DNA from: Erythrobasidium yunnanense
Taxonomy: Eukaryota > Basidiomycota > Cystobasidiomycetes > Erythrobasidiales > Erythrobasidiaceae
Direction of reading: 5' to 3'
NCBI GenBank assembly: GCA_001600175.1
Contig: BCJC01000006.1
Span: 1,193,968 to 1,257,967, forward strand
DNA: 64,000 bases
This document shows, piece after piece, positions 19,315-62,087 of this stretch (positions are counted from its first letter, which is position 1; each line of letters begins with the position of its first letter). The translations under genes were made by a program, and so were the position numbers. The notes beneath the pieces are model-generated. The model did no database searches, was not told where the DNA came from, and saw nothing but the letters and a program-made list of their open reading frames with translations.

Positions 19315-22046
19315 TCAAGTGTCTCGAAGACTTGACATAGGCCGTGTTGTGGGATGGTCTTCGTTGCTTATCGCATTCAGACGCGATATAGAGTTGCGAT
19401 GGCCCAAGCGAGGCGAAGACGTAGAATTGCGAGCCTTGTTGGCGGCTTCCAGCTCGTCCACTCGTCGGAGTAGAGCTTGAATAGTAGACTGAGTATGAGA
19501 TGCTGCGTTCGTATCGTTCTGGCTGGTCGAAGTATTGTTGAGCGACTTTCCACCCTCCAACTTTGCGATCTTTCTTTCCAGCAGTTGCAGCTCAGCAGTG
19601 ACATTCTGTTCAAATAGCTCGGTCCTCTTCATCATTGTCTCTTCCCACTCTACTCTCTTGTTTCGAGCGTCCTCGATCTCCCTGCCAATGTTCGCAGCCG
19701 CATTGTCCAACATATGATCGATGTGAGCTTGTATAGCTCGAGCGTCTGGAAGACTGTCATAGAGAGCCTCCATATCTTGCATAAAGACAGCCTTGGTAGG
19801 TCTAGATAGAGCGTGAGGAACAGGGCCACCTCCAAGAATTGGACCAGTTGCGGGTGTAGCTAGAGCTGGGCCTTGTAGGTGCGCTAGAGGAAGTGGTGGA
19901 ATGTGATGTGTTGGTCTATGATGTGCCGCGAAGCCAGCTGAAGGCGGGATGAAGGCAGGACCCTGTCGACCATCCTGAAATTGTGGGTGATGCGGAGGAA
20001 GCTGCTGCTGATGAGGTAGCAGAGGTGTAGCGGTGAGCTTCGAGAAGTGTTGATAGGTATGATGATGTAGAGGAGGGGCAGCAAAACTGGCTCGTCTGGG
20101 CGTATTCGGCCCACCCTGCGATGCGCGAGCCTGACTAAAGCTTTTGGCAATCGTCGGTGATGGCTGAGGGTGGTGATAGGATGGATTCGCAGGTGCTGTT
20201 CTAAGATTGTTGGAAGATTGAGTGGAGTGCTGAGTTGCAGAAGTTGCGATGGACAGATTCTTAGCTTTATCCTGAGCGAGCTGACCTCTTCTATGCGCCA
20301 ATGTTGACAGCGACGCTTGATGAGTGCTGCTCCAGACACAGACCAAGTTAGCAACCGAATTGGATACGAAGCGATCCATAAATCTTACCTCGTAGCCAAA
20401 ACGGAGCCTGTGGACACTGACTTCGATCCCGGTCTTGTAGCCTGAACAGTCTCGCGAGGCCTTTCTTCGACAGATTTACGCAGTGTCGTGAGATCCTTTC
20501 GAGTATTACTGACAGCTGATAGCGCTTCAAAGGCGTTTAGATGCGAAGATGGCGGACTTGCTACAGCTGAAGATGCAGGTAGACCAGACGTTACAGATTC
20601 TGTAGCAGAATACGTATGAGACTGCATAGGCGCCGATACGGGCCTTCTTCCCACGATAGTGGAAGTTCCCCGAGCTTCTTCTGGAGTTGCAGGTCTGAGC
20701 TCCGCCGAAGAATGTGGACGGCCTGGCAAGTACTGCGCAGAGAAGGAGTGAACAGCCAAGGATGTAGCGGCGGACGTAGCATTCGAATTGGCAGTATCGG
20801 GGGACGATGTTGGCATCTGATCTTCCGGGACGTTCGACGCGCCCGATGCGAGGAGCTGTTCTGAGACCTCCTCGACCACTTCCTCCTTGACATGGACTGT
20901 CATCTCAGCCTCGATAGACCTGTTCACGTCGATACACGGAGCATGCGCGTTGTGGACGCAGAGCAGGGCACGTGACGGAGCGATGATGGGCAAGGGTTGA
21001 GAAGTGAGATAGATCGACATTAGCAATGGAACTTGACGCTTGAGAGTATAGAATGCTTACATCTCCTCAGGCAGCGCAGCTGACGGGCGCTGTGACTTGC
21101 GCAGACGTGATCTGTCGCTGTCGTCTTCCAGAGCTTCGCGAGGGTCCTCTGTCAGCGTATAACTGCTCGGCGCTCTCTTTCTCTTGCCAATCTGAGATTG
21201 CGATAGGCTAGACATGTCGTGATGCTGATGTTGAGGTTGCGAGGCGTCGTGTCTGGCGTAACCCCAGATCGGTGTCGAGGGATACTGGATAAGCTGCATG
21301 ACAGCGTAGTCTCTGTTGCCGGAGTGCGTATAGTATGAAGGAGTGCGTGTATGGTATGATGCAGACCTGGGATACTGTTGCTGTCGATAGAGTGTACTGC
21401 CTGACGCCGCGCTGCTCTTTCGCCTTGCAACACCACCAGCAGAGTAGACGATAGGGCGGTGTTGTTGCTGCTGAGATGAAGCAGACGATGATGCTGCTGT
21501 TGATGCTGAAACCGAAGCAGAGGGAAGCGATGGCGAACTCGACGGAACTGGGGCGAGTGAAAGGGGAGTCGATGGGAAGGTGTAATACTTCGCAGAACTC
21601 GTCGGACCCGAGACGTATGCCAATGGCGGACTGTATTGCTGCTCAACGGCGCTGTTGTTGCTGTTGTTGCTGTTGTTCTTGTTGGTTTGCGACAGGTGAA
21701 GAGGTTGAGAAGGGATCTGGGTGCGCCTCTTTGCGCTAACTGGCGAGCTGGCACCAGCTGACACTGCAGCGGAATGGTGCTGAACAAGGAAGGTACGCCC
21801 TCTTGGTCTCGTGAGCGTCGACCCTGCTACGGGAGGACTGTGTGTCTTGCCATGATGCGAAGGAGACGTCGTCGAAGCTCCGTGCGACGACGAGGCGGAA
21901 TGAGCAGGTTTCTCGAAGCGGAACAAGCCAGATGATGATGAGGATGATGATGAAGTTGACGGAAGGAGGGAAGATGATGGCGGAGCTGGGTAGGCGAAAA
22001 AGTAAGGGGAGGGAGCCAGAGCGACGCCTGGGTAGGTTTGAGCCAT
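19315..22046 (-). CDS. Large low-complexity protein with C-terminal coiled coil, unknown
   Basis: Not recognised. Three exons. Exon 1 starts MAQTYPGVALAPSPYFF at 22046; it is full of Ser, His, Gln and Asn runs, with a KRKRAPSSYTL segment, and ends PEEM at about 21062. Exon 2 (about 20895 down to 20393) starts SIEAEMTVHVKEEVVEEV. Exon 3 (about 20334 to 19315) is Pro/His/Gln-rich, then turns into a predicted coiled coil (TKAVFMQDMEALYDSLPDAR, IDHMLDNAAANIGREIEDA, ELQLLERKIAKLEG) and ends MSSLRDT. The exon 1-2 and 2-3 junctions keep frame with good GTAAG donors. A GTG codon at 22118 extends the frame upstream but is not a start. Basic patches and disordered composition suggest a nuclear or scaffold role, but that is a guess. 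About 720 residues. Confidence 0.6.
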
Positions 22047-47608: not shown

Positions 47609-48222
47609 GGCTTCAGGCTGGGAACGACAGTGAGGGAACGACAGAGAATGCGAAGAAACGACTGGGATGCTGAGGAGACGAATGAACGAGGACGAACAGA
47701 AACGAGATGCAAACCCTTTCTTTGCAAGATTTGGTCGAAGGCCGGCTTGGCTGATCTTGCGAGCGATGCAATGCTCGAGCGCACCTCGATCCGCTGCAGA
47801 TGCAATGGAAGATGACCTTACATGCTACTGCGAAGAAGCTGAAGACTGCCATCCAACAATTCTTCCTTCCTGCAACCGGCCATCATCTTGAAAGCGGAGA
47901 TGGCATGATTATCGCAGTGTCAATCCTTCTCCTACTTCCTCTTCTCACTAGGCTCCACCCCTTCGCACCATCTCATTCTGAAGTCTCTTATCGCTCCTCT
48001 CACGAAACCGTAAATCGAACCAGGCTGTGTTTCCCGTCTCGCGACTGCAAATTGATTGGCCTTGTTTGACACCAAAACTATTCATCTGTCACGATCTACG
48101 CAAGCAGGCAACTCATCTTTGCTGCTCTAGAACACCGCTGCGTGTAATACCTCAGGTAAGAGTAAAGCTCAGCGGCCTGATACAGATCATTCGCTGAGCC
48201 TCTGTATGCAGTCGCAATCAGC
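47609..48222. other. Divergent promoter region between the GPI-protein gene and the basic-protein cluster
   Basis: About 610 bp with no convincing gene. It separates the minus-strand GPI-protein gene from the first gene of the basic Ser/Arg-rich cluster. Confidence 0.45.
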
Positions 48223-48810
48223 ATGCCTTCTTCCAGGTCACGAAAGATCGTCATTCTCGACGATAGTGATAGTGAAAGTCACGACAAGAGACGCAATAGT
48301 AGGGTGCACAGTAGCAGAGGACACAGCAGCAAACGCTCCAGCCGCCATAGTAGACGCCATCACGGCGATATTATCTTACACGAACGGTTTACCTTTCGAC
48401 GTCTGAGGCCTCAATACTCTATCTCTAGTGCAGACGACAGCTCCAACAGCTCCGAATGGGAGAGACAGCGACAAGTGGCGGCGACGCATCATGACAGGAT
48501 GACAATCAGCAAGCGCCGTAGCGATCGTGAGCGCCACTGCAGATGCAAGCACTGCGTCGAGCCAAAGAGACACAAGCATCGCGATGTGTCAGTAGAAGAC
48601 CGCCGTGACCGCACCACGAAAGACCGCAAGTCCTCAAAGTCGGCGAGACGGGCAAGAGCCGATCGAACAGAAGAATCAACTATTCCACAGCTGTTCGCTG
48701 CTCCCTTCGAGAAATTGGGCAATATCGGACGCCTTGTCCGATCGAAAAGCCTCAAAGATCTGAAAGATGCCAAACGAGTAGCCAAAGATTTCAAGGCCGT
48801 CCTCAGCTAG
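48223..48810 (+). CDS. Basic Ser/Arg/His-rich protein, cluster member 1
   Basis: Not recognised. Single exon, 195 residues, starting MPSSRSRKIVILDDSDSES. The body is rich in Ser, Arg, His and Lys with RSSRHSRRHHGD and a Cys pair in HCRCKHC. The C-terminal 40 residues look helical and less disordered: PQLFAAPFEKLGNIGRLV, SLKDLKDAKRVAKDF. It is the first of eleven same-strand small basic proteins ending at 59682. The mix of RS-like disorder with one amphipathic segment recurs in several members. Nuclear or RNA-binding function is possible by composition only. Confidence 0.6.
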   Translation: MPSSRSRKIVILDDSDSESHDKRRNSRVHSSRGHSSKRSSRHSRRHHGDIILHERFTFRRLRPQYSISSADDSSNSSEWERQRQVAATHHDRMTISKRRSDRERHCRCKHCVEPKRHKHRDVSVEDRRDRTTKDRKSSKSARRARADRTEESTIPQLFAAPFEKLGNIGRLVRSKSLKDLKDAKRVAKDFKAVLS

Positions 48811-49353
48811 CCAATCATCTGTGGTGCGCATTCTGGCACTGTCGGTCTGCCTGCGTTCCCCTTTTCGCTTTCTGTTACGAAGATGAGACATCAGTGTCCA
48901 GGCAGTCTGTATGCTTGAGCAGCCTGCCTCCTCGAAACGAGTGTTGCGTGTCTGAAACTGCTGTCTTTCCCGCATCGCGGGACATCCGAGCCCCCATACT
49001 CGTGGTCACGGCGTTGCCATGTCCAATCTATTCGAGCTACTTGGTCGACCTCGGCTTCCCGTTCTATTCATCTACTTACTTTCACTTTACGTTCGCATAT
49101 TGTGCATTCGGCCCTTCTCCTAGATCATTCGTTCAACGGACATCACCGCCTTTTGATGCTAGACAATCCCGCTGACTTTTCAGTTCATCAAGTAGCTAGC
49201 TGCACAGGTAGTTGCTCTCGTCAGCCGACGCAAGTAAGCTCTTAAGCCTCATTTCGTGTACACGTGCAGCTCACTTCGTATACAGGCCTCCTCTTCCTGT
49301 TCACCTCATCTCTCTACTCACCGGTGCACGGTCCTTGCACTTCAGCCTCTGTC

Positions 49354-50419
49354 ATGAGCTTCTCTAGAGGAGGAGTAGGAGGTTCAAAGAGAGATCACGT
49401 TGACAGCGTCAAGCTTGTTGACGTTCCCAGACGAAAGTCGTCCGCAAGGCGGTCTTTCAGTGGCAGCAGCCATCGTTCGCATAGCCAACCAGAGCGGCTC
49501 AGTACTAAGCACACGGCAAGCGATTTCGGTAAAAAGCGCTCTGCAAAAGCGACACCACAGCCCAAAAACAGCAAACACAAATCGCGTTCACCTTCACGCT
49601 CGCGTGCGAGGTCTGACTCTCGATCTGCATCGCATTCTCATTCCGGTTCGAAGAAGTCCAAAAAGGCATACGAATTCCAAGATGTCTCTTCCACGTCCAG
49701 TGCTGAGAGCGATGACGATAGCAGCGACAATAGCGAGTCCACTGCACCTTCGAGAGCTTCCCGGAGTCATGCTTCGTCACATCACGGAGGACGCCGAGAC
49801 AAGGAGAAAAGGCGGCCTTCAAGAGCGCGATCAGCCTCACGAGATGGAAGCTCACGACGTCGCTCGAAAAACGAAGACAGACACGAGCATGCTCGCTCGC
49901 GTTCGCGCGAGAAACGGGATCCTGAAAAGCGAAGAAGCTCATTTAGACACGAAAAGCAGCATCAGCATCGATCTCGAGGCGAAGATAGAGACCATAGGCA
50001 CGAGCATAGGCAAGTGTCCGCTCTTGCTGTTCCGCCTACCTTACTGATAACCCCAACATCTGCCCCACAGAGAGCGCAAGTCCCGCTCGCGGAAAGAAAC
50101 CTTCGTCATCAACAAGTACAATATTCCATTGATGGAAACCCGCGACGGTAAAAGACCGCGAAAGGCAGAGATACGAGTCCCAACCAAGGATGGCGAAGAT
50201 ATCTTCATCGTCGGGCCAGGCGTGGGCCGGCACAACGCAGCAAGACGCAAGAGGGCAAGAGCGCGAGCCAGGCGTCACCCTAAGTCTTTTGCCGATGACA
50301 AGCGCCGGTCATCGCACGACGAGGGAAAAAACCGACGGAAGTCGAACTCTGTGTGGCCGCCGGCGTCTGGTCAAGATTTACTCAGGCTTTTCTGGAATAG
50401 CATAAAGCACAGAATATAA
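49354..50419 (+). CDS. Basic Ser/Arg/Lys-rich protein, cluster member 2
   Basis: Not recognised. Two exons: 49354-50009 and 50071-50419, about 334 residues. Starts MSFSRGGVGGSKRDHVDSV. Long RS-type runs follow (KSRSPSRSRARSDSRSASHS, SRAPSR-like blocks), then an Asp/Glu/Ser patch and a His/Arg-rich stretch. After the intron comes the only globular-looking part: ETFVINKYNIPLME, EIRVPTKDGEDIFIVGPGVG. The intron (61 nt) has a GC donor with the textbook consensus AG|GCAAGT and a CCACAG acceptor. Splicing joins HEHR to ERKSRSRKE in frame, while reading through gives an unrelated tail ending at 50151. Confidence 0.62.
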
Positions 50420-50772
50420 GGAAGCCAGATATAGGCAAGTACCTTGGTGTCACCACCACGCTTTCAAATGTAAATTGTGGCTGGACACCGCTGAGACTTA
50501 CCAGATGTATCGTACGATCATGATGTATACGAGTAACAAATACCTCCTCTCCAGCAGCACCTCATCGCGATTTAGTATGGTTACTTACAAAATTCTTACC
50601 AGTGTCCGACTCGACGCATCACAGGCACCTCCGCACCGCCTTCCCGTCAATCAACGTATACGCTCTCTACGCTTCTGTGGTCCCTGACAACTAACGGGGA
50701 TTGTGTCGATTGTAAGTGCGTCGTTGCGGGCCACCTGCCCGACTGACGCTTTGCTCCGGACCCGCAGCTCGA

Positions 50773-51918
50773 ATGTCTCTGTCGTACGTTCTGAGCGATA
50801 CCAAGCCTAGGTCTGCCAAACCGAGAAAGCCTAGCAAGCACGTCAAATACGAAAGCTCCAATTTCAGCGAAACATCTGAATCCGAATCTGCCGCCTCGAC
50901 TTATACCGTATCTACCTCCACTGGAAGGTCGCATCGTCCCGGCTACAAAAGACACAGAAAGCAAGCGAAGAAGACGCATAAGCCTTTAGATGAGGTCGTA
51001 GACGACTATCGCCGGCGTCCTGACGGCAACAGTGGTTGGAGGGCTTATGAGGAAATTCGGAGAAATTCAAAGGGCGAAAAGGTTAACAAAGACATCATCT
51101 GGGAGCGCATAGATGATAAAGGACGGAAACACATCAAGACCTTTAGTATCACTAAGTCTGGCTCTAAAGCGAAACACCGCAAGGATTCATTCGACGACAG
51201 CGGCCTGGGTTCATCCATCAGCAGTGACTCCGACATTGAGAGTGAATTACCCCTGCAACTCAAGCGCAGATCGTCTCGAAGGCCCACAAACAGAATCAAG
51301 CACCGCAAGGATTCATTCGACGATAGCGGCCTCGGCTCGTCTATCAGTAGTGGCTCCGAGAGTGAGAGTGAATTATCCCTACCTCCCAGACACAGAACAT
51401 CCCGAAGGCTCGCAACAAAGCATGATCGGCACAGATCGCACAGGCATCATCGCGGTACTCGATCTCGTGTATCTGGGAAAGTCCACGAGAAGAGTATACG
51501 CATTCCTCAGCATCCCAAAACTAACATTGTTCTCAAAGCTGGCAAGAACATCTACATGGGCGACTGCAGTCCGGAGCCAAAGAGGCATTCTCGCCATCGC
51601 AACCATCGTAGAGATCGAAAGAGGCGTCACCGCTCTATGCATACAGCTGCGCCTCGGGAGTGGGAGAATCATCTGGTGCAGAGATACATCACGACCACGA
51701 CGAAGGAGTGGGAAGAGCCGCGGTTCAAGTGGCCGTGGACCAGTGGCAAGCGAAAGAACTACAAAGAATGGGTAGATCGTGATAGTGACTGGAGGTACAG
51801 CGTCATGGATTGGGGGAAGAAGAGAGGTCTGGCAGGGAAAGGCGAGGGAGAGGCCCCTGCAAAACCTGGACGGCATCTCAAGAATCGAGGAGACTTCAGA
51901 GTGCTGAGAGCGACATAG
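50773..51918 (+). CDS. Basic Ser/Arg-rich protein with 42-residue tandem duplication, cluster member 3
   Basis: Not recognised. Single coding exon, 381 residues, starting MSLSYVLSDTKPRSAKPRK. The ATG follows a CCGCAG acceptor-like site, so a 5' UTR intron is likely (donor GTAAGTG near 50710). Residues about 134-217 contain two tandem 42-residue units, each starting KHRKDSFDDSGLGSSISS (126-bp period, 51175 and 51301). Each unit carries DSGLGS, an exact match to the DSG-phi-x-S phosphodegron. Other blocks: GWRAYEEIRRNSKGEKVNKD, IIWERIDDKGRKHIKTFSI, NIVLKAGKNIYMGDCSPEP, and a Trp-rich end (WEEPRFKWPW, KNYKEWVDRDSDWRYSVMDW). The Trp-rich parts suggest some folded structure. Confidence 0.62.
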   Translation: MSLSYVLSDTKPRSAKPRKPSKHVKYESSNFSETSESESAASTYTVSTSTGRSHRPGYKRHRKQAKKTHKPLDEVVDDYRRRPDGNSGWRAYEEIRRNSKGEKVNKDIIWERIDDKGRKHIKTFSITKSGSKAKHRKDSFDDSGLGSSISSDSDIESELPLQLKRRSSRRPTNRIKHRKDSFDDSGLGSSISSGSESESELSLPPRHRTSRRLATKHDRHRSHRHHRGTRSRVSGKVHEKSIRIPQHPKTNIVLKAGKNIYMGDCSPEPKRHSRHRNHRRDRKRRHRSMHTAAPREWENHLVQRYITTTTKEWEEPRFKWPWTSGKRKNYKEWVDRDSDWRYSVMDWGKKRGLAGKGEGEAPAKPGRHLKNRGDFRVLRAT

Positions 51919-52205
51919 TGCATCTACCAATGCTACATTATCTAATTAAACATCTGCTCCTCGCGCCCTCCTGTACGGCATTCAGTCGTCTTTACTCTGT
52001 CATTGTCAAGATATCCCCCCTTCTCACACACTCGCTACAACCTCCTGTAACTGTTCGTTCTACATGTTTTCAGGAATTGCGCTGTCAGACGTGAGGCGGT
52101 GAGTGTCCAGAGTACCTGACTTGTTGACAACAGAGTCTGACAGGTTGCTGTTGCTTTGCTTAGCAGCTCCACCTAGCACGAAATAGTCCTTCTAGGGGCT
52201 TCGTA

Positions 52206-52595
52206 ATGTCTCAAAGGCCACAAGCACCAGCCAGGACTGCATCTGCTTCTGCTTCCTCCGCTGCATCCTCCTCGTCGGCGTCTACAGTGGGACCTCCACA
52301 ATCGAGCTTTGCGCCGGCCAGCGCTCTAAAGAGGACCGACAGACCGACGCATGTCAATATCTTCGATCCCAAAGTTAACAGCCGCATGAATGTCGATGTC
52401 ACGACTAACTACCCGGATAAAAGGCAAAAGAGAGTGCAGCGTGAGGAACTGCAGCGTCTCCAAGCACTCGCTGATGCGGAAAAGAGAAAGAAGCAGAAGA
52501 AAAAGAAGAAAGCTATAAGACTGGTCAGAGTGAAAACACAAGACGATGAAGGGGAGAAGAAGGAGAAGAAGCCGCGAAGGAGAAGATGGTGGTAG
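52206..52595 (+). CDS. Small Ser/Ala then Lys-rich protein, cluster member 4
   Basis: Not recognised. Single exon, 129 residues, starting MSQRPQAPARTASASASS. An Ala/Ser-rich leader precedes a short ordered-looking segment (RTDRPTHVNIFDPKVNSRM, then NVDVTTNYPDKRQKRVQ). A charged helix with a Lys run follows (about 52475-52515), and the end reads KKPRRRRWW. Strongly basic, probably nuclear by composition. The gene lies between members 3 and 5 with intergenic distances near 290 and 125 bp. Confidence 0.55.
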   Translation: MSQRPQAPARTASASASSAASSSSASTVGPPQSSFAPASALKRTDRPTHVNIFDPKVNSRMNVDVTTNYPDKRQKRVQREELQRLQALADAEKRKKQKKKKKAIRLVRVKTQDDEGEKKEKKPRRRRWW

Positions 52596-52720
52596 CCGGA
52601 GAACTTGCAGCTAGTTGGAGAGGTATGATCCCCGGGTGTTGAGGGTCCGATAAGCAAGCGTGTGTCCTCAGCATTACGTTGTATGCAGCTTCCTGTTAAC
52701 GCTTCGAGGGAATGCAACCT

Positions 52721-53317
52721 ATGACGACGTGTGGTTACGACTCTTTCGATCCAACTACCTGTCAACAGGATTTTCCATCTTGTCAGACATCAGGGGCTGT
52801 GAGTCCGCTTGCGCATGGTGGAGTTGGGATGCGAGCTGGCAGCTTGCTCTTCCTTCAACACCAGCCACACTAGCCACAGCGCTCCCAATCGATCTTCCAA
52901 GACCGAGGCGACTCCTGTGAACGTTTGCCTGAAGGTATGCCTCAAGAGCAGTATCGAAAAAACGGAAGCTCTTCTAAAAGGGAAGATGAAAAGAGGAGAA
53001 AGGACAAAGAGAGGGAAATAGAGCGCCGTAGGAGAGCCGCCGCAAAACAGAGACGCATGGAGGAAGAAGAGGAGGCAAGAGAGCAAGAGCGCCAGCAGAG
53101 AAACGCCAGGTTGGCTGTTCCTAAGGGAATACTTCGACGGTCCTCCTCGGACGGCTACTCATCCTACAATGACCTTTCTGCAGATGAAAATGCCAGAAAC
53201 AACGTGGATTTAAGCAGTTCAGCCGAGCTGCACAAGAAGCCGCAGAAGGAGGAAGGAAAAGGAACAGGAGCAGGTAATGGGAAGAAGGGGAAGAAGAAGA
53301 AACCAAGCGCTGCGTAG
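52721..53317 (+). CDS. Charged coiled-coil protein with Cys-containing first exon, cluster member 5
   Basis: Not recognised. Proposed two exons: 52721-52798 (MTTCGYDSFDPTTCQQDF, then PSCQTSGA, three Cys) and 52880-53317, joined over an 81-nt GTGAGT...CACAG intron. Exon 2 begins RSQSIFQDRGDSCERL, then a very charged helix (EDEKRRKDKEREIERRRRAA, KQRRMEEEEEAREQERQQRN). ILRRSSSDGYSSYNDLS follows, and a Lys-rich end KKGKKKKPSAA. The model is supported by frame continuity and good splice sites only. An alternative is a shorter protein starting at the ATG at 52925. About 171 residues. Confidence 0.5.
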
Positions 53318-53603
53318 ATGATTGAGGAAGGCCTGTATCTGTCCCTTGTCTGTCTCCGTCCTCTTATCCGTGTACAAGTGTGCCGACTACAGCTCCAGGC
53401 CCAGCAACGCTTGGTCTTTCACTAAGTAAGCAGGACCATGAGAAGCAGCGTATGTCTGCCTGAAGACTCTGCAGAATGGTCATCGTCCAGCATCCGAAAG
53501 GCAGCGCCCTGACGGCTTGCAACCCCTCCAGCTGGCAGGATGTCGCTGGTCTCTTTCGGCTGGCTACTCGCAGCAGCACTCTTCAGTAGTCGACCACGCT
53601 GTG

Positions 53604-54137
53604 ATGCCTTCAAGACATCGTCCAAGCTCCCGTCCTCATGGTCGCAGTCATACGAGAAAGCCGGCTCACCATAGAAGTCGCAGAGATGGAGAAAGCAAGA
53701 GAAGACAACGCCATCACAGATACGACGACGATAGCGATGATGACTACGATTTGTGAGATGGTATGCAATCACTGAAACTGGATCCAAGACTGCCTACTAT
53801 GCGGGCCGTCCCGAAGATCCTGCAGCACACCGCTAGCAGGAAAGCCCGCGAACAGACTTCTTTAGGTTTCTGGCATCTGGTGAAAACACCTTTCTCTAAC
53901 ATGGGTAGAGATCCAAGAAGTAAGCATTCCGCCCTCAAGCCTACCGAGGGTGTTCGCAACAAGGCAATTTCAACCGGACTGGCTGTCATTACAGAAACTG
54001 CATGGAGAGCTGGTCTGCATCAACTCAATAAGAGCAAGAGAGCGCGGAAATGGGGTGTGATGAGACTGCTGGGCAACGTGCAGGTCTCCCCAGAGCAAAA
54101 TGCGAGAAGACATAGCAAGCGCTCCCGAAATCATTGA
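53604..54137 (+). CDS. Basic His/Arg/Ser-rich protein, cluster member 6
   Basis: Not recognised. Starts MPSRHRPSSRPHGRSHTRK. Exon 1 (53604-53752) is His/Arg/Ser-rich and ends with an Asp-rich patch (RYDDDSDDDYD). Exon 2 starts near 53837 or 53840 (two adjacent AG acceptors in the same frame) and codes KAREQTSLGFWHLVKTPF, GVRNKAISTGLAVITETAWR and KSKRARKWGVMRLLGNVQ. It ends HSKRSRNH. The donor is GTGAGA at 53753. Without splicing the first frame stops at once and the second has its own ATG at 53763, so two separate genes cannot be fully excluded. About 149 residues. Confidence 0.5.
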
Positions 54138-54428
54138 CGTTAGATGCTGCTGCTTGGCGGCTACTTGTCGAGTCTTAGCAGCTGTTATGCTCTATCGCTG
54201 CTTCTCTCCAGCACTCCGCTCGCAACTCCACCTGCCGTGAATCATGCCCTTTGATCGCTGTAGTCCGACAACTTCATCGCACCGACAAACACCTGACTGC
54301 TAGTCAAGATGACTTCATCCTCTCCTTGTCTTCACGCAGACCCTTGCAACACTCTGACGAGATAGAGGTGAGCCATACAGAGGAACGTCTGTCACCCAGT
54401 CTCGACTGATGCAGATTTATGCCGCAGA

Positions 54429-54992
54429 ATGGCAGACTACCATCAGCGAGACGATAGGCGCCGACGCACTCGTGAAAGACAAAACCTCCGAGACTATCCA
54501 GACTCCAATGCGTCTTACCCATTCAACACCTACAGCGCTTCCAATTCGTCAGGCGGGAGTTCGCGCCACTACAGCTCCTCGACAGATGGATCCAGAGGAC
54601 GACGCTCGTCTGCTTCAAGTGCAGGCTCCAGTTCCGCCGATCCCTACTTTCAGAACACTCAACCCAGATATGACCGACGTTCCTCCAAGAAGCAGAAATC
54701 TACGAGCAGCAAAGCCCTCGATCGATTGCTACCAATGGCCGTGCCTGTGCTAGAAGGGATCCTCGCTAAAGTAGGCGTTCAGGAGGGCGACATCTATACC
54801 TACATCGACGCTTTCAAGTACCCTCAAATGCCAAAGTCTCGATCAAGAAGCTACTCTGGTGAACACGAAGATATCGATATCACTATCCGCTTGCAGGCTG
54901 TTGGCAAACTCGTGCTAAAGAACCACAGCAAAGATATTCAGCAGCTCGTGCTCAGCGCCCTTCTCAGCAAAGTTGTCAAAATCAGACTATAG
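54429..54992 (+). CDS. Ser/Tyr/Arg-rich protein with C-terminal helical domain, cluster member 7
   Basis: Not recognised. Starts MADYHQRDDRRRRTRERQN, directly after a GCCGCAG acceptor-like site, with a GTGAGCC donor near 54366; a 5' UTR intron is therefore likely. The first 95 residues are Ser/Tyr/Asn/Arg-rich and probably disordered. The last 90 look folded and hydrophobic: ALDRLLPMAVPVLEGILAKV, GDIYTYIDAFKYPQMP, IDITIRLQAVGKLVLKNHSK and QQLVLSALLSKVVKIRL. 187 residues, single coding exon. This is the member with the largest non-polar domain and the best candidate for structure-based homology search. Confidence 0.6.
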   Translation: MADYHQRDDRRRRTRERQNLRDYPDSNASYPFNTYSASNSSGGSSRHYSSSTDGSRGRRSSASSAGSSSADPYFQNTQPRYDRRSSKKQKSTSSKALDRLLPMAVPVLEGILAKVGVQEGDIYTYIDAFKYPQMPKSRSRSYSGEHEDIDITIRLQAVGKLVLKNHSKDIQQLVLSALLSKVVKIRL

Positions 54993-55394
54993 CACAAGAC
55001 CTTGCCAATGATGCTGCTCGCAAGCTTTCCATCGTCTGAAACACGCTCCCCATGTAACCTGTAGTGCCGGGTACTACTCTTTCTGCTGATCTTACATGCT
55101 ACTAAAACTGTCTCAACGGATCAACGCCAGGTCGGCTAAGTCGTTGCAGCTTTCGCTACATGCTCGAACGCAATGTTGAGCCTGCGGACGAGATGTGCTC
55201 CCAAAAGGTCTCCGGTTGCTTTCCACCGAACAAAACAGCTGCACGACATGAGGAGCCGGAATCAAGAACAACTTGTTGCACCAAGAGCACCGCCTTCCGT
55301 AAGACACAAAACTGCTGCTAACGACTCGGCAACTTGCTGAGCGCTCTCTGTCTCGCTCTCTCTTGGCCCCCTACGCGCAAGCACAAGTCCGAGC

Positions 55395-56165
55395 ATGCCT
55401 GCAAGAAGCAAACATAACAAGTCGGGTGGCTTGATGGGCAGAGTAGCTAAACGTGCGCTGAAGGAAGCTGTTGGCGGTCGCTCCAGCAGATCAAGATATG
55501 ACAGTAGATATGGGCCTCGACCTAGTCACAGACTGGCCTACGATTCGTACGAATCCGATGAATACAGCGTCGGAGGTTACGGTGCTCCTCTCGTGCCCTA
55601 TTCCCGCCACTCAAGACGTCCTTCTGGCGGACCACTTCTGTCTGGTCCATTTGGGGATCAACTGAAGTGGAAGATTGGAGACTACATCGTTCGGAAATTT
55701 GCAAATCCGAAGAGCCTGATGGCTCTTATCCCTGGACTCAAGGGCGATGACACTTCTGAGTCATCGTCCGACACCTCGTCTTCAGACTCCGAAGACGGCA
55801 AGCGGTCGCGACGCAAGCCGCGCAAGAGCAGCCGCAGACACAATGTGTCTCGTTCTAAAGAGGGAAGACGTACACATCGCAGATCAGACCACGGCAGGAA
55901 GTCTAGAGACGACTCCTCGTTAGACTCCAGTGAGGACGAAAAGCCTCGACCCCGCCGAAGACATCAAAGTGACCGTCACCGGTCCAGACGCCATCATGGT
56001 GACAAAGGAACGAACAGCGGCCATCGCAGCCATCGCGAAGAACCTGTACGCAGACATAACTATCGCAGCCGCCGGCCCACTCGACCTCATGGGAGAGAGG
56101 GTGCAATACCTCCTCATGCTGCAAATTACGGCGTGCCTTATGGAGCGCCTACACCTTACTATTAG
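55395..56165 (+). CDS. Basic Ser/Arg/His-rich protein, cluster member 8
   Basis: Not recognised. Single exon, 256 residues, starting MPARSKHNKSGGLMGRVAK. A short amphipathic stretch (LMGRVAKRALKEAVGG) is followed by a Tyr/Ser-rich segment. A less polar block comes next (PLLSGPFGDQLKWKIGDYIV, RKFANPKSLMALIPGLKG). A Ser/Asp patch (SESSSDTSSSDSEDG) and a long Arg/His/Lys/Ser tail follow, ending GVPYGAPTPYY. The start MPARSK is like MPSSRS (member 1), MPSRHR (member 6) and MSSRNR (member 11). Confidence 0.62.
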   Translation: MPARSKHNKSGGLMGRVAKRALKEAVGGRSSRSRYDSRYGPRPSHRLAYDSYESDEYSVGGYGAPLVPYSRHSRRPSGGPLLSGPFGDQLKWKIGDYIVRKFANPKSLMALIPGLKGDDTSESSSDTSSSDSEDGKRSRRKPRKSSRRHNVSRSKEGRRTHRRSDHGRKSRDDSSLDSSEDEKPRPRRRHQSDRHRSRRHHGDKGTNSGHRSHREEPVRRHNYRSRRPTRPHGREGAIPPHAANYGVPYGAPTPYY

Positions 56166-56517
56166 CAGTATTTCCTGTATGGCGACGCAGAATGATACCT
56201 GTCTCTGAAAATGCACCTTTGTCCAAAGTGAGCTGGAGTGCTGATCATTCTTGATCTGTCCAAAATTTTCAGGATAGGACTCTATACCACTTTCGCGTGT
56301 TCTTACTGGTCTTCGAGCAATCCACGTGCGATTGGTAGCGTCTAGGTGAGTGAAGGAACTTTGTGGGTGGCGCATGCATTCAGAGTCTGACGGATGACAT
56401 AGCCTTCACACGATAACAGGGTGAAATTTTCAGATCAGATCTCCCCTCGCGCTGCCAATGCCTACCATACACGTATCAGCTAGCTAGAGAGAAGGCTATC
56501 GCCATTGCTATCTCGAA

Positions 56518-56910
56518 ATGGGTTCTAAGAAGGGTGGACAGTCACCAGGGAAGGGGAAGCGTCCTTCGCCTAATCACCATGACCCTGCAGACTTTCCTAT
56601 ACCTGTTGAGGGCATGCTGCCGCCTCCGCCTCCGCCTCCTCCTCCTCCAAACGACGGTTTGGGTAATCAGCATGGCTCATTCTCTGGTTATCCTCGACTT
56701 CCGGATCCGACAGAAGTTCCTCTGCCCGCGTCGACGAAAAGCTCCTCTCGATGGTCAGAACACAGCAGATCCTCGTCACAACGCAAACGTCGCAATCAAC
56801 TTCCTTCATTGCCCACGCGCGTCTGTCTGGCCATTCGAAAGCCTAAACAGATAGATTCACTATCATCTGCCGCCAATGGCGGCCAAGAGGAAAGGGAGGA
56901 ATCATGGTAA
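56518..56910 (+). CDS. Polyproline-containing protein, cluster member 9 (3' end uncertain)
   Basis: Not recognised. Starts MGSKKGGQSPGKGKRPSPN. A run of ten Pro codons lies at about 56622-56651 (PVEGMLPPPPPP...). The Ser/Arg segment SSSRWSEHSRSSSQRKRRNQ follows. The open frame then enters the first copy of the palindrome array (56869-56883 gives AANGG) and stops at 56910. The last 30 codons may not be genuine: the gene could splice out near 56750-56800, and it may share exons with the next gene at 57881. Poly-Pro next to RS-like sequence is compatible with a splicing or actin-related adaptor, but that is only compositional. Confidence 0.45.
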   Translation: MGSKKGGQSPGKGKRPSPNHHDPADFPIPVEGMLPPPPPPPPPPNDGLGNQHGSFSGYPRLPDPTEVPLPASTKSSSRWSEHSRSSSQRKRRNQLPSLPTRVCLAIRKPKQIDSLSSAANGGQEEREESW

Positions 56911-57832
56911 TATCACCAGTCGAAAGCGTTCGCCAGTCTTCAGTCGAAAGCGTTCGCCAGTCTTCAGTCGAAAGCGTTCGCAGAAGGTCTACTCTTGACC
57001 GCCAGTGGCGGTCCAGACATGCCATTCTGAAAGTACAGCGTTCGCCAGACTTTGTTCTGGCCGCCATTGGCGGCATGAAGAACACGGACCGACGAAAGCT
57101 TTCGCTGAGACTGAAGGCGAACGCTTACAGTACGACTACTGCCTTTTGGCCGCCAATGGCGGCTGATGATCGAAATCACGTGACTGAAAGTTCAGACTTC
57201 AAATCTGAAACCCGACCTTTCGGCACTGCAACACCTGTCCAGACGTGCTCTACGTACACGATTTGCAGCCTTGGGCTGCTAGCTAATCAAAGTAGCTTAC
57301 GAATTTCATTTTCGAACTCATCCGAACGACCTGCCATTTCCCCCCTAACTCCTTTCGCCCCCTTTCCGCATCCCTCCAACGCGCCATCTTGATACTGTTC
57401 TCTTTTGCCGCCAATGGCGGCTAATCATAGCAGTCCTACTGGTGTTCGCACTAATTCTACTGAAAGCATTCGCCCTGTTCTCAGCGAAAGCGCCTGGAAA
57501 GCTGGTCGAAAGCAGTCGTTTCAGTTTGATTCTGACCGCCAGTGGCGGTTGACAGGCAGCATTTGGTGACAATAATTCGCTGCTTGTTCAGCAGGTTCAG
57601 TCCGCATATCAATGACCGCCATTGGCGGTTGTAAGTTGGAACACCTTAACATTCGAAAGTAGTAGTCTTACTCTGGTCGAAATGAAAACGCAGTAGTATT
57701 ACTGAAAGTATTCGCTTCTGCTCAGGCTTCTGACCGCCAATGGCGGTCTGAACGAATCAAACTCACGCCAAAGCCAACACTGTCAGTTGAAAGCATTCGC
57801 CAGATTGCAGACCTTTGGCCGCCATTGGCGGC
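56829..57832. repeat. Bipartite palindrome array: nine copies of RCCGCCANTGGCGGY with associated TGAAAGC(A/G)TTCGCC motif
   Basis: Nine copies of the 13-bp core CCGCCANTGGCGG start at 56870, 56999, 57061, 57150, 57408, 57536, 57616, 57734 and 57819 (centre base A, G, T, A, A, G, T, A, T). The base before and after each core is always a complementary pair: G...C in copies 1, 3, 4, 5, 9 and A...T in copies 2, 6, 7, 8. Beyond this pair symmetry is lost. A second motif, itself near-palindromic (TGAAAGCATTCGCC or CGAAAGCGTTCGC), precedes many copies by 14-20 nt: 56969, 57028, 57703 and 57788, with weaker forms elsewhere. At 56921-56981 this second motif stands in three tandem 24-bp units. Spacing is irregular (62-258 bp), so it is neither satellite nor CRISPR. 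It lies between cluster members 9 and 10. Confidence 0.9.
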
Positions 57833-57880
57833 AACTTAAGGAAGGACAATCTGGTATGACCCTTGAAGAAAGACAAAAAG

Positions 57881-58765
57881 ATGGAAGAGTTGGATGGAAC
57901 AGTTGGCTGCAAAGCCTTTGCCGCGGGAACCCATATATCATCGCACGCTCCCGAACGGCGGCACCGGCACAAACGCAAGAAACGTGAATCATCCAGCAGT
58001 AGTTCTGACTCCAGTAGCGAGCCTGCGAGACATCATCGTGATGCGAAGAAGCGTACGCGGTCGCGGTCGGAAGCCAAGCATACAGGGAAAGAGCGTCGGC
58101 GGGGCAAGAGTCGATCCGAAAGTCGTCCGCGGCTTCACAGGACTGACTCTTGGCCGTCTTCTGTCGATGACGACCGTAGTTCTACGAAACAGAAGCGACA
58201 CCGATCTGCACAGGATAGGAGGCGATCCAGTATACGATCGAGATCCTCAAGTCACCACAAAGACAGGGACAGACGAAGAAGAAGGTCTGAGCCACCATCC
58301 GACTCAGGTGAAAGCTCTGAGGTGCTATCTTCCAGCCGCTCCAGTAGTCGACACAGAGGTGCCAGATACAAGCGCGACATGCGGCAACTACAACGCGAGA
58401 TGGAACAGCTCGAGCGTAGAAATGATCGCCTTCAGCGTATTCATGAAGATGACGATCTTAGTAGCTATAGCGAGGTCCCTATTCGCCATAGAGAGGCGAG
58501 ACACAGGAAGCCCACTCAACATCGATCACGGCGGAACCGTGAAGAGGGAGGTCATGAAGAGAGAGCACGAAGGCATGCAAAACCACACAAGAGCAAGGCA
58601 TCCTGGAGGAGTCAAGCTAAAGACATTTTCTACGAAGAATCGAATAAGCGCCGATTTCGAGATCTGCTGACCACTTCGCACGAGTTTAGACAGCAGTACA
58701 AGGAGTGGTACAAAGTCGCTGGAGACCTGTTACCCTACAAACCTCCCAAGCGTCGAAGACGATAG
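57881..58765 (+). CDS. Basic Ser/Arg/His-rich protein with coiled coil, cluster member 10
   Basis: Not recognised. First ATG in frame is 57881 (MEELDGTVGCKAFAAGTH), directly downstream of the palindrome array; the frame is open a little further upstream without an ATG, so an upstream exon is possible. The basic region includes RRHRHKRKKRESSSSSSDSS and RSSIRSRSSSHHKDRDRRR. PPSDSGESSEVLSS follows, with a DSGxxS match, then a coiled coil (RDMRQLQREMEQLERRND). The C-terminal segment looks folded: WRSQAKDIFYEESNKRRFRD, EFRQQYKEWYKVAGDLLPY. It ends KPPKRRRR. About 294 residues. Confidence 0.6.
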   Translation: MEELDGTVGCKAFAAGTHISSHAPERRHRHKRKKRESSSSSSDSSSEPARHHRDAKKRTRSRSEAKHTGKERRRGKSRSESRPRLHRTDSWPSSVDDDRSSTKQKRHRSAQDRRRSSIRSRSSSHHKDRDRRRRRSEPPSDSGESSEVLSSSRSSSRHRGARYKRDMRQLQREMEQLERRNDRLQRIHEDDDLSSYSEVPIRHREARHRKPTQHRSRRNREEGGHEERARRHAKPHKSKASWRSQAKDIFYEESNKRRFRDLLTTSHEFRQQYKEWYKVAGDLLPYKPPKRRRR

Positions 58766-59043
58766 TGGAGTTCGTCTTTACACTATAGGATGATATCACT
58801 GCCGATTCCATTTAGCGCGTGCAAACTATGCTTGAGTTGCCCGCTACAGTCCGCTAATCAACCGCCGGCAAGTTGGTACGGTGACCTGTCGAGTCATCCC
58901 TGTGGCTACCTGACAACATGCACTGCCCGCTTGTGCAGGTGGAAAAAGGCTAAAAAGAGTCGAACAACTGCAGTACTAGGACTTTCAAGTAACTAGCAGA
59001 AGCATACCCATCATCTCGTCACCCCACACGTACACCTTATCCA

Positions 59044-59682
59044 ATGTCTAGTCGCAACCGTCCCGGCATGAAGCGAGAGAGCAGGCGACACGGAATGCGA
59101 AGAACCGTGTCTGACGACAACGCAGACCTGCCACCAGGGGGGCAACGATCGCCTACACCCAGCATATCCTCGAGCGACTCCGACGCGTCCAGACTTGCTA
59201 AAGCCGTTATACAGCACAATGAGCAAAGGAAGTACAGAAGGGGGCGGACATCGAGACGACGCAAAGAAGACCTATCGGTATTCATCCTTGGAACTAAAAA
59301 GCCTGAGAAACGTAGAGGACATGTCGGATTTCGTCTCAATGCCCTAAATCATCCAGACAAGAAACAGCTTTCCAACGTATTTAACGAACACAGATATCGG
59401 AGGACCCCTTCGACGGAACGCTTGAAGGAGATACTGGATGTTAATCCAGTCACGTCTTCGGAGGACGAGCAAGAAAAGCGACGAAAACGACATGCCAGGC
59501 GGCGCCGCGAGAAGAAGAAGGCGGAAAGCAAGAAGGCCAGGCGGGAACAATCTTCTTCTTCTTCAACATCCGACAGCGATCGCCCGAGTGAATCGTCTTT
59601 TAGACGAAGTTATTCCTCGTCGACTGGTTCGAAACGTACTGGCAGGTCAAGTTCCAGAGACAGTGGCTATGCTAGCTTGTAG
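59044..59682 (+). CDS. Basic Ser/Arg/Lys-rich protein, cluster member 11
   Basis: Not recognised. Single exon, 212 residues, starting MSSRNRPGMKRESRRHGMR. A middle segment looks partly ordered: SRLAKAVIQHNEQRKYRRG, LSVFILGTKKPEKRRGHVG and FRLNALNHPDKKQLSNVF. A Lys/Arg-rich helix (EQEKRRKRHARRRREKKK) and a Ser-rich end close the protein. The last residues are SRDSGYASL, which again contain DSGxxS, here at the extreme C-terminus. It is the last member of the cluster; the next gene is RAD52 on the other strand (3' ends converge). Confidence 0.6.
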   Translation: MSSRNRPGMKRESRRHGMRRTVSDDNADLPPGGQRSPTPSISSSDSDASRLAKAVIQHNEQRKYRRGRTSRRRKEDLSVFILGTKKPEKRRGHVGFRLNALNHPDKKQLSNVFNEHRYRRTPSTERLKEILDVNPVTSSEDEQEKRRKRHARRRREKKKAESKKARREQSSSSSTSDSDRPSESSFRRSYSSSTGSKRTGRSSSRDSGYASL

Positions 59683-60020
59683 TGGGTCGTAACAAGAGAA
59701 GCTCTGAGGAGGAAAGCATAATAGAAGCGCTGACTACCCTATATGCGGTTAAGAGCGTGTTTTGCACTGGGCTGAGGGTCGCTCCACCTAGGGTTGTGCT
59801 GTACAGTCACGTAGGAGACTGGGGTGCGATCACACTGTAAAGGGATCTTTTACAAGTACACTACAACGGGAATTGCAAAGCAAACTATAGTAACAACAAC
59901 GAGACATCGCTGCCAAAACGATTAAGACTGCTTGACATCTTGAAAACATCAACATAGGCTGCATTGCACCTCTCTCTTGCCATAAAATATCATCATACTT
60001 TCTCTTTCTCGATAACGGTA
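59683..60020. other. Convergent 3' region
   Basis: About 340 bp between the last cluster gene and the RAD52 stop. No gene, RNA gene or repeat recognised. Confidence 0.5.
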
Positions 60021-62087
60021 CTAAACAGCGACAGCTTCGCCAGACAGCTTCTCTGCTTCTTTCTTAGCTCTTTTGGCCATTGCATCTTGTCTGTTTCTTT
60101 CGATCTGCTGCTGCTTTGCCGTAGCTTCGTATTGCTGTAGCCATCTTGCGCGGTCTACGGGGCCTAGTTCAGGAGGAGGAACAGCCTGTTCCGAACTGCT
60201 TTCACGACTGGAAAGTTAGAGGTGTTAGTGCATTGTAGCGTCTGATTGAGCTGTGAGACATGTATGACTTACGTCAATTCGAAGTTGCGCTTCATTCCAC
60301 GAGCTGAAGTAAAGTTGACCTTTGAAGGGATCTCTTCGCCAACAGGAGCATTGAAACCTCGCTCTTCGGGATCGAAAGTCACGTCGCCGACACCTAGATT
60401 CTCATCTTTGAGATCGAAGGTTTCGTCTGGCAAAGGAGCTCGCGGTTGCTGCAATTTCTGTGCGGGACGTCCGCCTTCTACCTTCGGCTGCATAATAGGT
60501 CGACCTTGTGGAGCTCGTACGGCCTCAATGAACGAAGCGAATTAGTCGGATTTAATGGACGCTTTGGGTCGATTCGACTCACTTGAACATTGCCCTGCTG
60601 GGCTTGCTGATTCATAGGGCGAATAGCACCATTTCCATGCTGTTGCTGCTGACCACGGTTTGCTGCTGCTTGCTGTCGCTGCTGCTCAGCGCTTCCCGTT
60701 TTCTGATTTGCTACATTTCCCGATTTGTTCTGTTGCGGACCTTGATTGGCGTTTCTGTTGCCTCCACTCTTCTGTATCTCATTCTTTCCATCTCCTACTT
60801 GCTTTGCAGCGGATGAGCTGGGTCCGTTACCGTTTGGCTTTGCTTGTTGCTGAACTACGCTTGGTCCCTCTTCGAAGCCGCTGTCATCGTACATATCGAC
60901 GTTCTCTCCTTCCACGACGAAAGTTTCCATATCTTCATCGTTCATGTCGTCAAACATCTCCTCCGATCCTTCAGCGGCTAGGCCCTTGTTGTTGCCAGGT
61001 TCTGGCTTGGGCGCCAGATTCGAAGGTCCGGCTACTGGCTGTCTCGCTTGATTCTGAATAGGAGCTGGAGCGGCTCGTGTCTGGTTTTGCTGATTGTTCT
61101 TGTTATTGTTGATTACTCCGTTTTGCATTCTAGCGTTCTGCTGATTCTGCTGATTGTTGGCCTGAGCAGGTCGTCCTTGGTTCTGGTTTGCGTTCGTATT
61201 GGTCTGTGCTCTGTTGTTCTGAGCAGCCGGTTGTTTACCCTTGTCCTGGCCTTCATTGTTTCCTTCCGAGTTCGGAGCAGGACCAGCACCGATAGCACTC
61301 TGACCAGGTCGATGTAGTTCACTGAAGTCTAGCTTCGGCTTTGCAGGTGGTTTGACTTTGGAAATGTTTTCGAGAAAGTTCTTGTCATACAAACAATTTC
61401 CGAGGAGACTGCCGAAGTTTCGAAGGGCCCGCTTGACAGCGTCAGTAATAGCTTCTTTCTTGATCTGTATAAGGAAGAATCAAGAGAGAAGAAAGGAAAA
61501 CGAGGGCGAAAGGTGACGAGATCCAAGTATAAACAGGAGAAAGCGAACAGTCGTCAGCCGAGAACCAGGACGGCCAAGAGTACGTTGTCTATACCTTGTC
61601 CATAGCATCTGCTTTGGATCTTGCATTCTCAATCTTCCCACAGCCAACATCTTCATGAAAGGTACCGCATGAGAGAGTGATGCGTACTCTTGCTGAAACG
61701 GCAGCATTGAAACGCTGGCTTTCCTCGTTGTAGTCACACTGTGTTGACCTATTAGTGAAGGAATAGAAAGAGAAACATCGACATGGACGCACGAAGTCCA
61801 GAGTAAGCTCCTTGATTTCAGAGCTCCAGCCATTGAAGCCAAAGACCTCGTTGGCGAGGTTGATGCACCTCCATCCTTCAATGTAGGTCATCTTGGTACC
61901 TCCGGCGCCTTGTCTCGTGCTGAGATACTCTGGTCCCAGCTTCTTTGCCAGCAGAGCTCCGAGCCTCATGATCTTGTCTCTAGCCTCTGCCGGACGGTCA
62001 AACGAGATCAGAGTTGGATCATAGATACTACATCTATCAGCACATACCCTCATCGGGATCCCTCGATGTTGATTCCAGCAGATCCAT
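60021..62087 (-). CDS. RAD52: DNA repair and recombination protein RAD52
   Basis: Mediator that loads Rad51 and anneals single strands in homologous recombination. Exon 1 (62048-62087) codes MDLLESTSRDPDE; a 61-nt intron (61987-62047) joins it in phase to EARDKIMRLGALLAKKLGPE. The Rad52/22 domain follows: YIEGWRCINLANEVFGFNGW, ESQRFNAAVSARVRITLSC, GTFHEDVGCGKIENARSKAD, ALRNFGSLLGNCLYDKNFLE. The middle is very Asn/Gln-rich (about 60640-61260) with an acidic MFDDMNDEDMETF patch. The C-terminal part is PLPDETFDLKDEN, ending KEAEKLSGEAVAV. A 54-nt intron after ELTLDF has no in-frame stop. Longer open frames reaching 62128 begin with TTG and are not the start. Head to head with RAD54. Confidence 0.93.

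Follow-up and report, generated by a model that had tools for sequence, protein, structure and literature searches.

Nine copies of the 15-bp palindrome RCCGCCANTGGCGGY (element E1) lie at one locus within 56869-57832, less than 1 kb, in the window (the whole 64,000-nt stretch of Erythrobasidium yunnanense DNA analysed here, whose numbering is used throughout), and every exact copy of its inner 13-mer CCGCCANTGGCGG found in the genome falls in this array. Our favoured reading, which we regard as an even call, is that the array is a cis-regulatory homotypic cluster in which a dimer would sit on each palindrome together with a second factor, controlling the downstream gene. The elements are as follows, E2 being the second motif of the array.

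56829..57832, + strand, whole array: nine E1 palindromes and 15 forward GAAAG cores of E2 (motif search)
56869..56883, unstranded, E1 unit 1, GCCGCCAATGGCGGC, flank orientation ambiguous
56998..57012, unstranded, E1 unit 2, ACCGCCAGTGGCGGT, exact match
57060..57074, unstranded, E1 unit 3, GCCGCCATTGGCGGC, exact match
57149..57163, unstranded, E1 unit 4, GCCGCCAATGGCGGC, exact match
57407..57421, unstranded, E1 unit 5, GCCGCCAATGGCGGC, exact match
57535..57549, unstranded, E1 unit 6, ACCGCCAGTGGCGGT, exact match
57615..57629, unstranded, E1 unit 7, ACCGCCATTGGCGGT, exact match
57733..57747, unstranded, E1 unit 8, ACCGCCAATGGCGGT, exact match
57818..57832, unstranded, E1 unit 9, GCCGCCATTGGCGGC, exact match
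56917..56981, + strand, E2, 2.7 tandem copies of the 24-bp unit CAGTCGAAAGCGTTCGCCAGTCTT, before unit 2
57029..57045, + strand, E2 variant with insertion (GAAAGTACAGCGTTCGC)
57093..57105, + strand, E2 copy CGAAAGCTTTCGC, its first 12 nt a perfect palindrome
57116..57142, - strand, inverted E2 copy, before unit 4
57447..57473, + strand, E2 copy, extended form
57486..57518, + strand, three GAAAG half-motifs at 57486, 57497 and 57508
57689..57715, + strand, E2 copy, extended form
57783..57801, + strand, E2 copy before unit 9, containing TGAAAGCATTCGCC
56518..56910, + strand, upstream ORF (MGSKKGG..., 130 aa), its last codons overlapping unit 1 (ORF and codon score)
57881..58765, + strand, downstream gene, predicted 294-aa Arg/Ser-rich protein (ATG chosen by us)

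Copies and uniqueness of the palindrome

Exact copies of CCGCCANTGGCGG start at 56870, 56999, 57061, 57150, 57408, 57536, 57616, 57734 and 57819 and span 56870-57831 (962 bp). The first-pass annotation had described nine copies within 1 kb, had noticed none elsewhere in the window and had called for a genome-wide search; in that search (20.9 Mb, ten contigs) all nine exact matches to CCGCCANTGGCGG were in the array, so that the palindrome is not scattered at random expectation, and the reversed pattern gave 0 matches. By arithmetic, a 12-letter word is expected about once per 20.9 Mb. With one mismatch allowed, 42 genomic places were found, 33 of them outside the array against 27 for the reversed control, which places the palindrome near chance level in the rest of the genome. 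With up to two mismatches the window held 10 places (shuffle mean 2.12, maximum 6, 100 shuffles), the tenth being at 21617 with 2 mismatches. Within 56829-57900, 13-mers with 1, 2 or 3 mismatches were absent (0.36 expected) and those with at least 4 stood at background level: the palindrome copies in the array are either perfect or absent.

Across the nine units 12 of the 13 positions of CCGCCANTGGCGG are invariant, and the centre base varies. The outer pair of RCCGCCANTGGCGGY is G-C in five units and A-T in four, none being mixed and none G-T; given those counts, a matched outer pair in all nine has by arithmetic a chance of 1 in 126. The covariation ascribed to the palindromes at first reading is borne out at this pair, the sole covarying one, the inner five stem pairs being constant.

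The surrounding 264 kb was scanned for perfect-palindrome words (5-base arms, gaps 0-11, single-letter arms left out), and no other palindrome cluster with at least four copies within 1.5 kb was found. As a genome query the region 56829-57832 matched itself alone. A query of the 81 bases around unit 8 also returned its self-match alone; it missed the sister units too and therefore says little about diverged copies elsewhere. One site thus recurs in this short stretch more often than chance allows, as in a homotypic cluster, and a chance origin is ruled out by the shuffles, genome counts, reversed controls and 264-kb scan.

The next-best cluster in the 264 kb has arms TTCAAAT/ATTTGAA in three copies within 1.5 kb (G000:C6:1150419, L007). 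Separately, AAGCGCAAAG (either strand) occurs four times within 1.5 kb at G000:C6:1353076 (L021).

The second motif

The array is enriched about tenfold in E2 (GAAAGC-N-TTCGC), mostly in one orientation. With the palindromes masked, GAAAG occurs 15 times (1.45 expected), the top of 470 five-letter words (uncorrected p 5e-11), and TTCGC, among the top words of the same 470 (uncorrected), occurs 11 times (1.24 expected); forward to reverse counts are 15:4 for GAAAG and 11:2 for TTCGC. A GAAAG core starts 28-33 nt upstream of six of the nine palindromes, a spacing preference with a permutation p of 0.002 (5000 random placements, best six-nt offset bin).

The fuller motif is less regular. Unit 9 is the only one with the full form TGAAAGCATTCGCC close before it; another exact copy, at 57461, stands farther from unit 6. 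Copies with two changes stand close before units 2 and 8, and one with a small insertion before unit 3. At the E2 place, units 1 and 6 have the GAAAGC half alone, unit 4 has an inverted copy and a farther forward copy, and units 5 and 7 have no E2 nearby. The statement that most palindromes follow the second motif by 14-20 nt is therefore overstated: 6/9 units have the GAAAG core at its preferred spacing, and the fuller form lies 14-17 nt from the palindrome in 4/9 units. The copies are diverged and in most cases semi-palindromic only. The E2 core was also found beyond the array when it was searched for alone in the genome, so that it is not genome-unique as the palindrome is.

The inverted copy at 57116-57142 is similar over 27-31 nt to 57448-57474 and 57685-57715, resembling the copies before units 6 and 8 with reverse-strand scores of 15 and 19. 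Of twelve shuffles, eleven scored 11-14 but one reached 24, which leaves the inverted match not beyond doubt.

Spacing, flanks and order of units

The palindromes are spaced start to start by 129, 62, 89, 258, 128, 80, 118 and 85 nt, with irregular gaps of 47-243 nt between 15-mers. In the blocks examined, between-unit flank identity was 0.21-0.30, against a random mean of 0.25 with a 99th percentile of 0.32; the block from -10 to -1 (0.43) is the exception, and beyond about 10 nt from the palindrome the sequence is at random level. The earlier statement that the motifs are kept and the spacers are not is thus upheld, the palindromes being invariant and their flanks random beyond that distance.

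In the best flip arrangement, unit 1 is opposite to the other eight and the tract YTTYTG stands directly before R, with T at -3 in 9/9 units and G at -2 in 8/9; the arrangement scored 11.6 against 9.4 for the highest of 300 random sets. Eight of nine units thus share one orientation, and that of unit 1 is ambiguous because this unit is in addition similar to unit 5 in direct orientation (88% over 24 nt). Among seven periods tried for helical phasing of the palindromes, the top vector was 0.69 at 10.8 (uncorrected Rayleigh p about 0.014).

The centre bases of the units run AGTA, AGTA, T (p 0.026), and spacers of units 1-4 compared with those of units 5-8 gave z of 3.75, 1.35 and 4.2. An old block duplication of units 1-4 into 5-8 is suggestive only, because a non-corresponding spacer pair (u2-u9, z up to 4.3) scores equally well; if it were true, units 3 to 7 and 4 to 8 would have changed G..C to A..T on both sides.

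A small inverted repeat, TTCAGA-cttcaaa-TCTGAA, lies at 57191-57209, in the long spacer that separates unit 4 from unit 5.

Neighbouring genes

The window belongs to contig 6, which is 1.96 Mb long. The best match of its PRP40 protein is a metagenome protein (81%), followed among named sources by a Cyphobasidiales MAG (60%) and Cystobasidium minutum (55%), which places the host among the basidiomycetes, in or close to the Cystobasidiomycetes. The ORFs flanking the array are both on the + strand. From the end of the array to the likely ATG of the downstream gene are 48 nt, with A at -3. No Pfam family was found in the upstream ORF or in the downstream 294-aa protein, and no homologues were found at E 0.001 among 5.8 billion proteins for the whole downstream protein (3090 candidates) or for its residues 225-294 (9 candidates), in a word-based search that misses remote kin. 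Both ORFs belong to a row of Lys/Arg/Ser-rich ORFs on the + strand (48181-59682), followed by RAD52 and RAD54; ten ORFs of the row were scanned and gave no Pfam match. These Arg/Ser/Lys-rich, apparently disordered ORFs are possibly a lineage-specific gene cluster. One of them, the Arg/Ser-rich ORF 50716-51918, contains a 126-bp tandem duplication (1.9 copies) at 51175-51409.

A candidate cis-regulatory cluster

In the favoured reading the array would form part of the 5' region of the orphan Arg/Ser-rich gene starting at 57881. A homodimeric sequence-specific DNA-binding protein would occupy each RCCGCCANTGGCGGY, reading nearly every base, while the GAAAGC/TTCGC words, which precede most palindromes by about three helical turns, would be read by a second factor; through the nine sites jointly the 57881 gene would be activated or repressed strongly, cooperatively and in a locus-specific way. 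We infer the protein binding, the dimeric state, the target gene and the direction of control alike. Symmetry through the A.T to the centre, near-total invariance and free flanks argue for a stringent homodimer on DNA, the complementary A.T at the centre being predicted by a DNA dimer site and unneeded by an RNA hairpin, and the position of the array suggests control of the downstream gene. Also in favour are the uniqueness of the array, the lack of near-miss copies, the outer pair matched in 9/9, the random flanks, the enrichment and spacing of GAAAG, and the weakness of any coding signal across the array.

Regulatory clusters normally include degraded sites and serve several genes, and all-or-none copies at one locus count against this reading. 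Hardest to explain is the lack of decay, which some of nine redundant sites ought to show; either every unit matters, or the units are kept equal by copying. Put generally, nine palindromes identical but for the centre and the matched outer pair, none decayed and none found elsewhere in 20.9 Mb, mean that near-perfect recognition is demanded at the locus or that copies are kept equal, which makes the array a test case for why redundant sites do not decay. The oriented pyrimidine tract and the orientation bias of E2 also count against, since a palindrome-binding dimer does not require them. No sequence-specific regulator was found among the 49 distinct window frames scanned with Pfam, the DNA-related matches being the repair proteins RAD52 and RAD54.

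Ten TTF-I sites are clustered in mouse rDNA, according to the portion of the source available (PMC3772059). There too a single kind of site recurs many times in about 1 kb; the present array differs in being identical over 12 positions, bipartite and confined to one locus, and its binding protein is putative.

The suggestion of a multi-site platform for a dimeric regulator remains the best reading, motifs being kept and spacers not, but its Zn2Cys6 part is weak. In the available extract of PMC5559640, Zn2Cys6 dimers are described as typically recognising pairs of CGG triplets, and everted sites (Leu3) as outward-facing CCG...CGG palindromes, as here, where CCG-N7-CGG is present in 9/9. The present palindromes differ from such sites in their seven-base interior, which is invariant except at the centre (6/7 positions in 9/9), and in their nine copies. 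As general background, everted sites of this class have largely free interior bases, and the invariant interior therefore disfavours a Zn2Cys6 protein. Some regulators have a gene linked to the target, and linkage is not required; no linked Zn_clus gene was found, the nearest among the 27 Zn_clus matches listed lying about 360 kb away, so the proposal gains nothing from linkage. With 12/13 positions invariant and no listed Zn_clus within 360 kb, the Zn2Cys6 geometry is not specially supported.

The open-licence literature yielded no mention of the palindrome motif or of CCG-N7-CGG spellings, and no match for palindromes in Cystobasidiomycetes genomes, for fungal homotypic palindromic promoter clusters, or for URS1/Ume6 with GCCGCC promoter sites, GCCGCC being a word that we take to resemble the yeast URS1 core. 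If the bound protein or RNA were found, a new recognition pair of high specificity would be gained from a fungal lineage that has received little study.

Alternative readings

The array may work as XIST repeat A does, through an RNA carrying nine multivalent hairpins, or as RTS1 does, as a polar barrier with bound protein, its sequence being related to neither; we think this unlikely. If true, it would be a single-locus control element whose copies are exact because unit number and identity matter, and we know of no fungus in which such a single-locus chromosomal control element has been described. The likeness to XIST repeat A, RTS1, TTF-I sites and GC clusters is formal, and membership in none is claimed.

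The RNA form of this idea, to which we give little credence, is that a transcribed region with nine GC-rich hairpins (6-bp stem, ANU loop) after U-rich tracts would act as a multivalent scaffold for an RNA-binding protein. It would account for oriented units with a pyrimidine tract upstream, for the E2 orientation bias and for an outer stem pair that changes on both sides, and the region folds more stably than 40 shuffles on both strands (z -11.4 on +, -7.2 on -), although repeats alone also lower folding energy. The inner five stem pairs, however, never vary, which indicates that sequence is kept and not structure alone, and two invariant loop bases are mutually complementary, which a hairpin does not need. 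In predicted ensembles, local hairpins reached a probability of at least 0.9 in only 3/9 units on the + strand and at least 0.84 in 3/9 on the - strand; the short-hairpin family named by the first-pass annotation is thus possible, but forms locally at high probability in a third of the units only. At its gathering threshold Rfam gave 0 matches in the window. With E values up to 10 allowed, no match touched the array; a single weak one (E 3.4) lies outside it, at 56105-56190. XIST repeat A has 8-9 units with a 46-bp consensus monomer, a CG-rich palindromic core and T-rich linkers, as set out in the section available of PMC3734131, and the units of about 45 bp, the GC-rich palindromic core and the T-rich stretch recur here. 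On the same partial source, XIST has two palindromes per unit where the present array has one strict palindrome with an invariant inner stem. The present array, unlike XIST repeat A, is known from DNA sequence alone.

A polar replication-fork barrier, transcription terminator or chromatin boundary, with a protein array as at RTS1 or TTF-I sites, is distinctly improbable in our judgement. Such a role would suit a single locus of about 1 kb with mostly oriented repeats between two same-strand ORFs, and parallels with RTS1 and the rDNA TTF-I sites may be drawn, but no known feature of the locus requires fork arrest, the Rfam scan of the window found no rRNA gene, and the STE3 matches are on another contig. 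In the passage of PMC10473836 available, the fission yeast element RTS1 measures 859 bp, and the Myb protein Rtf1 binds four repeat motifs in its region B. Like that element of about 0.9 kb, the present array has repeated motifs; it differs, as far as that passage describes RTS1, in having nine repeats, not four, and in their being palindromic. Its repeats are, as at RTS1, at a single locus and in one orientation (8/9 units, unit 1 ambiguous).

Local self-copying is another reading to which we assign a low probability: the palindromes would have spread by insertion, slippage or gene conversion, and their identity would reflect recent copying and not a function. The copies are identical with none decayed, their flanks are unrelated, and the tandem and inverted E2 copies indicate that the locus rearranges. 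Against this, no exact copies were found elsewhere in 20.9 Mb, no consistent target duplication is present (unit 8 alone has a 5-nt TCTGA on both sides), and the AGTA-AGTA order (p 0.026) hints, weakly, that some of the array arose after the palindromes did. The mobile GC clusters of yeast mitochondria are also short GC-rich palindromes in several copies, as the part of PMC4478555 available describes them; compared with that description, the present palindromes are nuclear and at one locus, and scattered copies with target-site duplication were not found.

A CRISPR array likewise has identical palindromic words with unrelated sequence between them, but the present spacing is irregular (47-243 nt) where a near-constant spacer length belongs to CRISPR, the palindrome flanks are not kept as in a constant repeat, and the host is a eukaryote. 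Viral contigs contained no palindrome pair with a gap of 40-70, and prokaryote genomes contained 27 stretches with such a pair, of which 26 had no more than the one pair and the remaining one was a CRISPR-like array. The latter lies in L042 (proteobacterial MAG UBA2383) from about 1915 to at least 4764 with a period of 64-65, and its repeat contains CCGCCATTGGCGG between TTTCAGT and TAGAAAG; the sharing of this 13-mer is taken as coincidence.

That the array belongs to the coding sequence or to a spliced exon of the Arg/Ser-rich genes beside it is scarcely credible: a 181-codon open frame (56847-57392 including the stop) crosses four palindromes and its part from ATG 56904 has a codon score of 0.048, above zero, but nine other ORFs taken as coding score 0.087-0.222 and each of the three frames contains palindromes. 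Between about 57220 and 57700 every one of the six frames has a codon score below zero or close to it, and the array region does not look coding; a coding repeat is ruled out by the three-frame palindromes and the weak codon score. Further candidates were rejected: an intron joining the upstream to the downstream ORF (no convincing acceptor before 57881, by eye), a tRNA or known RNA (none found at the array), transposon ends (22 inverted pairs in 54000-61000, those touching the array being the palindromes themselves or short and imperfect) and a mating-type locus (all six STE3 matches on contig C10). On that contig STE3 matches occur twice, inverted and with identical scores, at G000:C10:9109-9981 and 47901-48773, which is either an assembly palindrome or a real inverted repeat.
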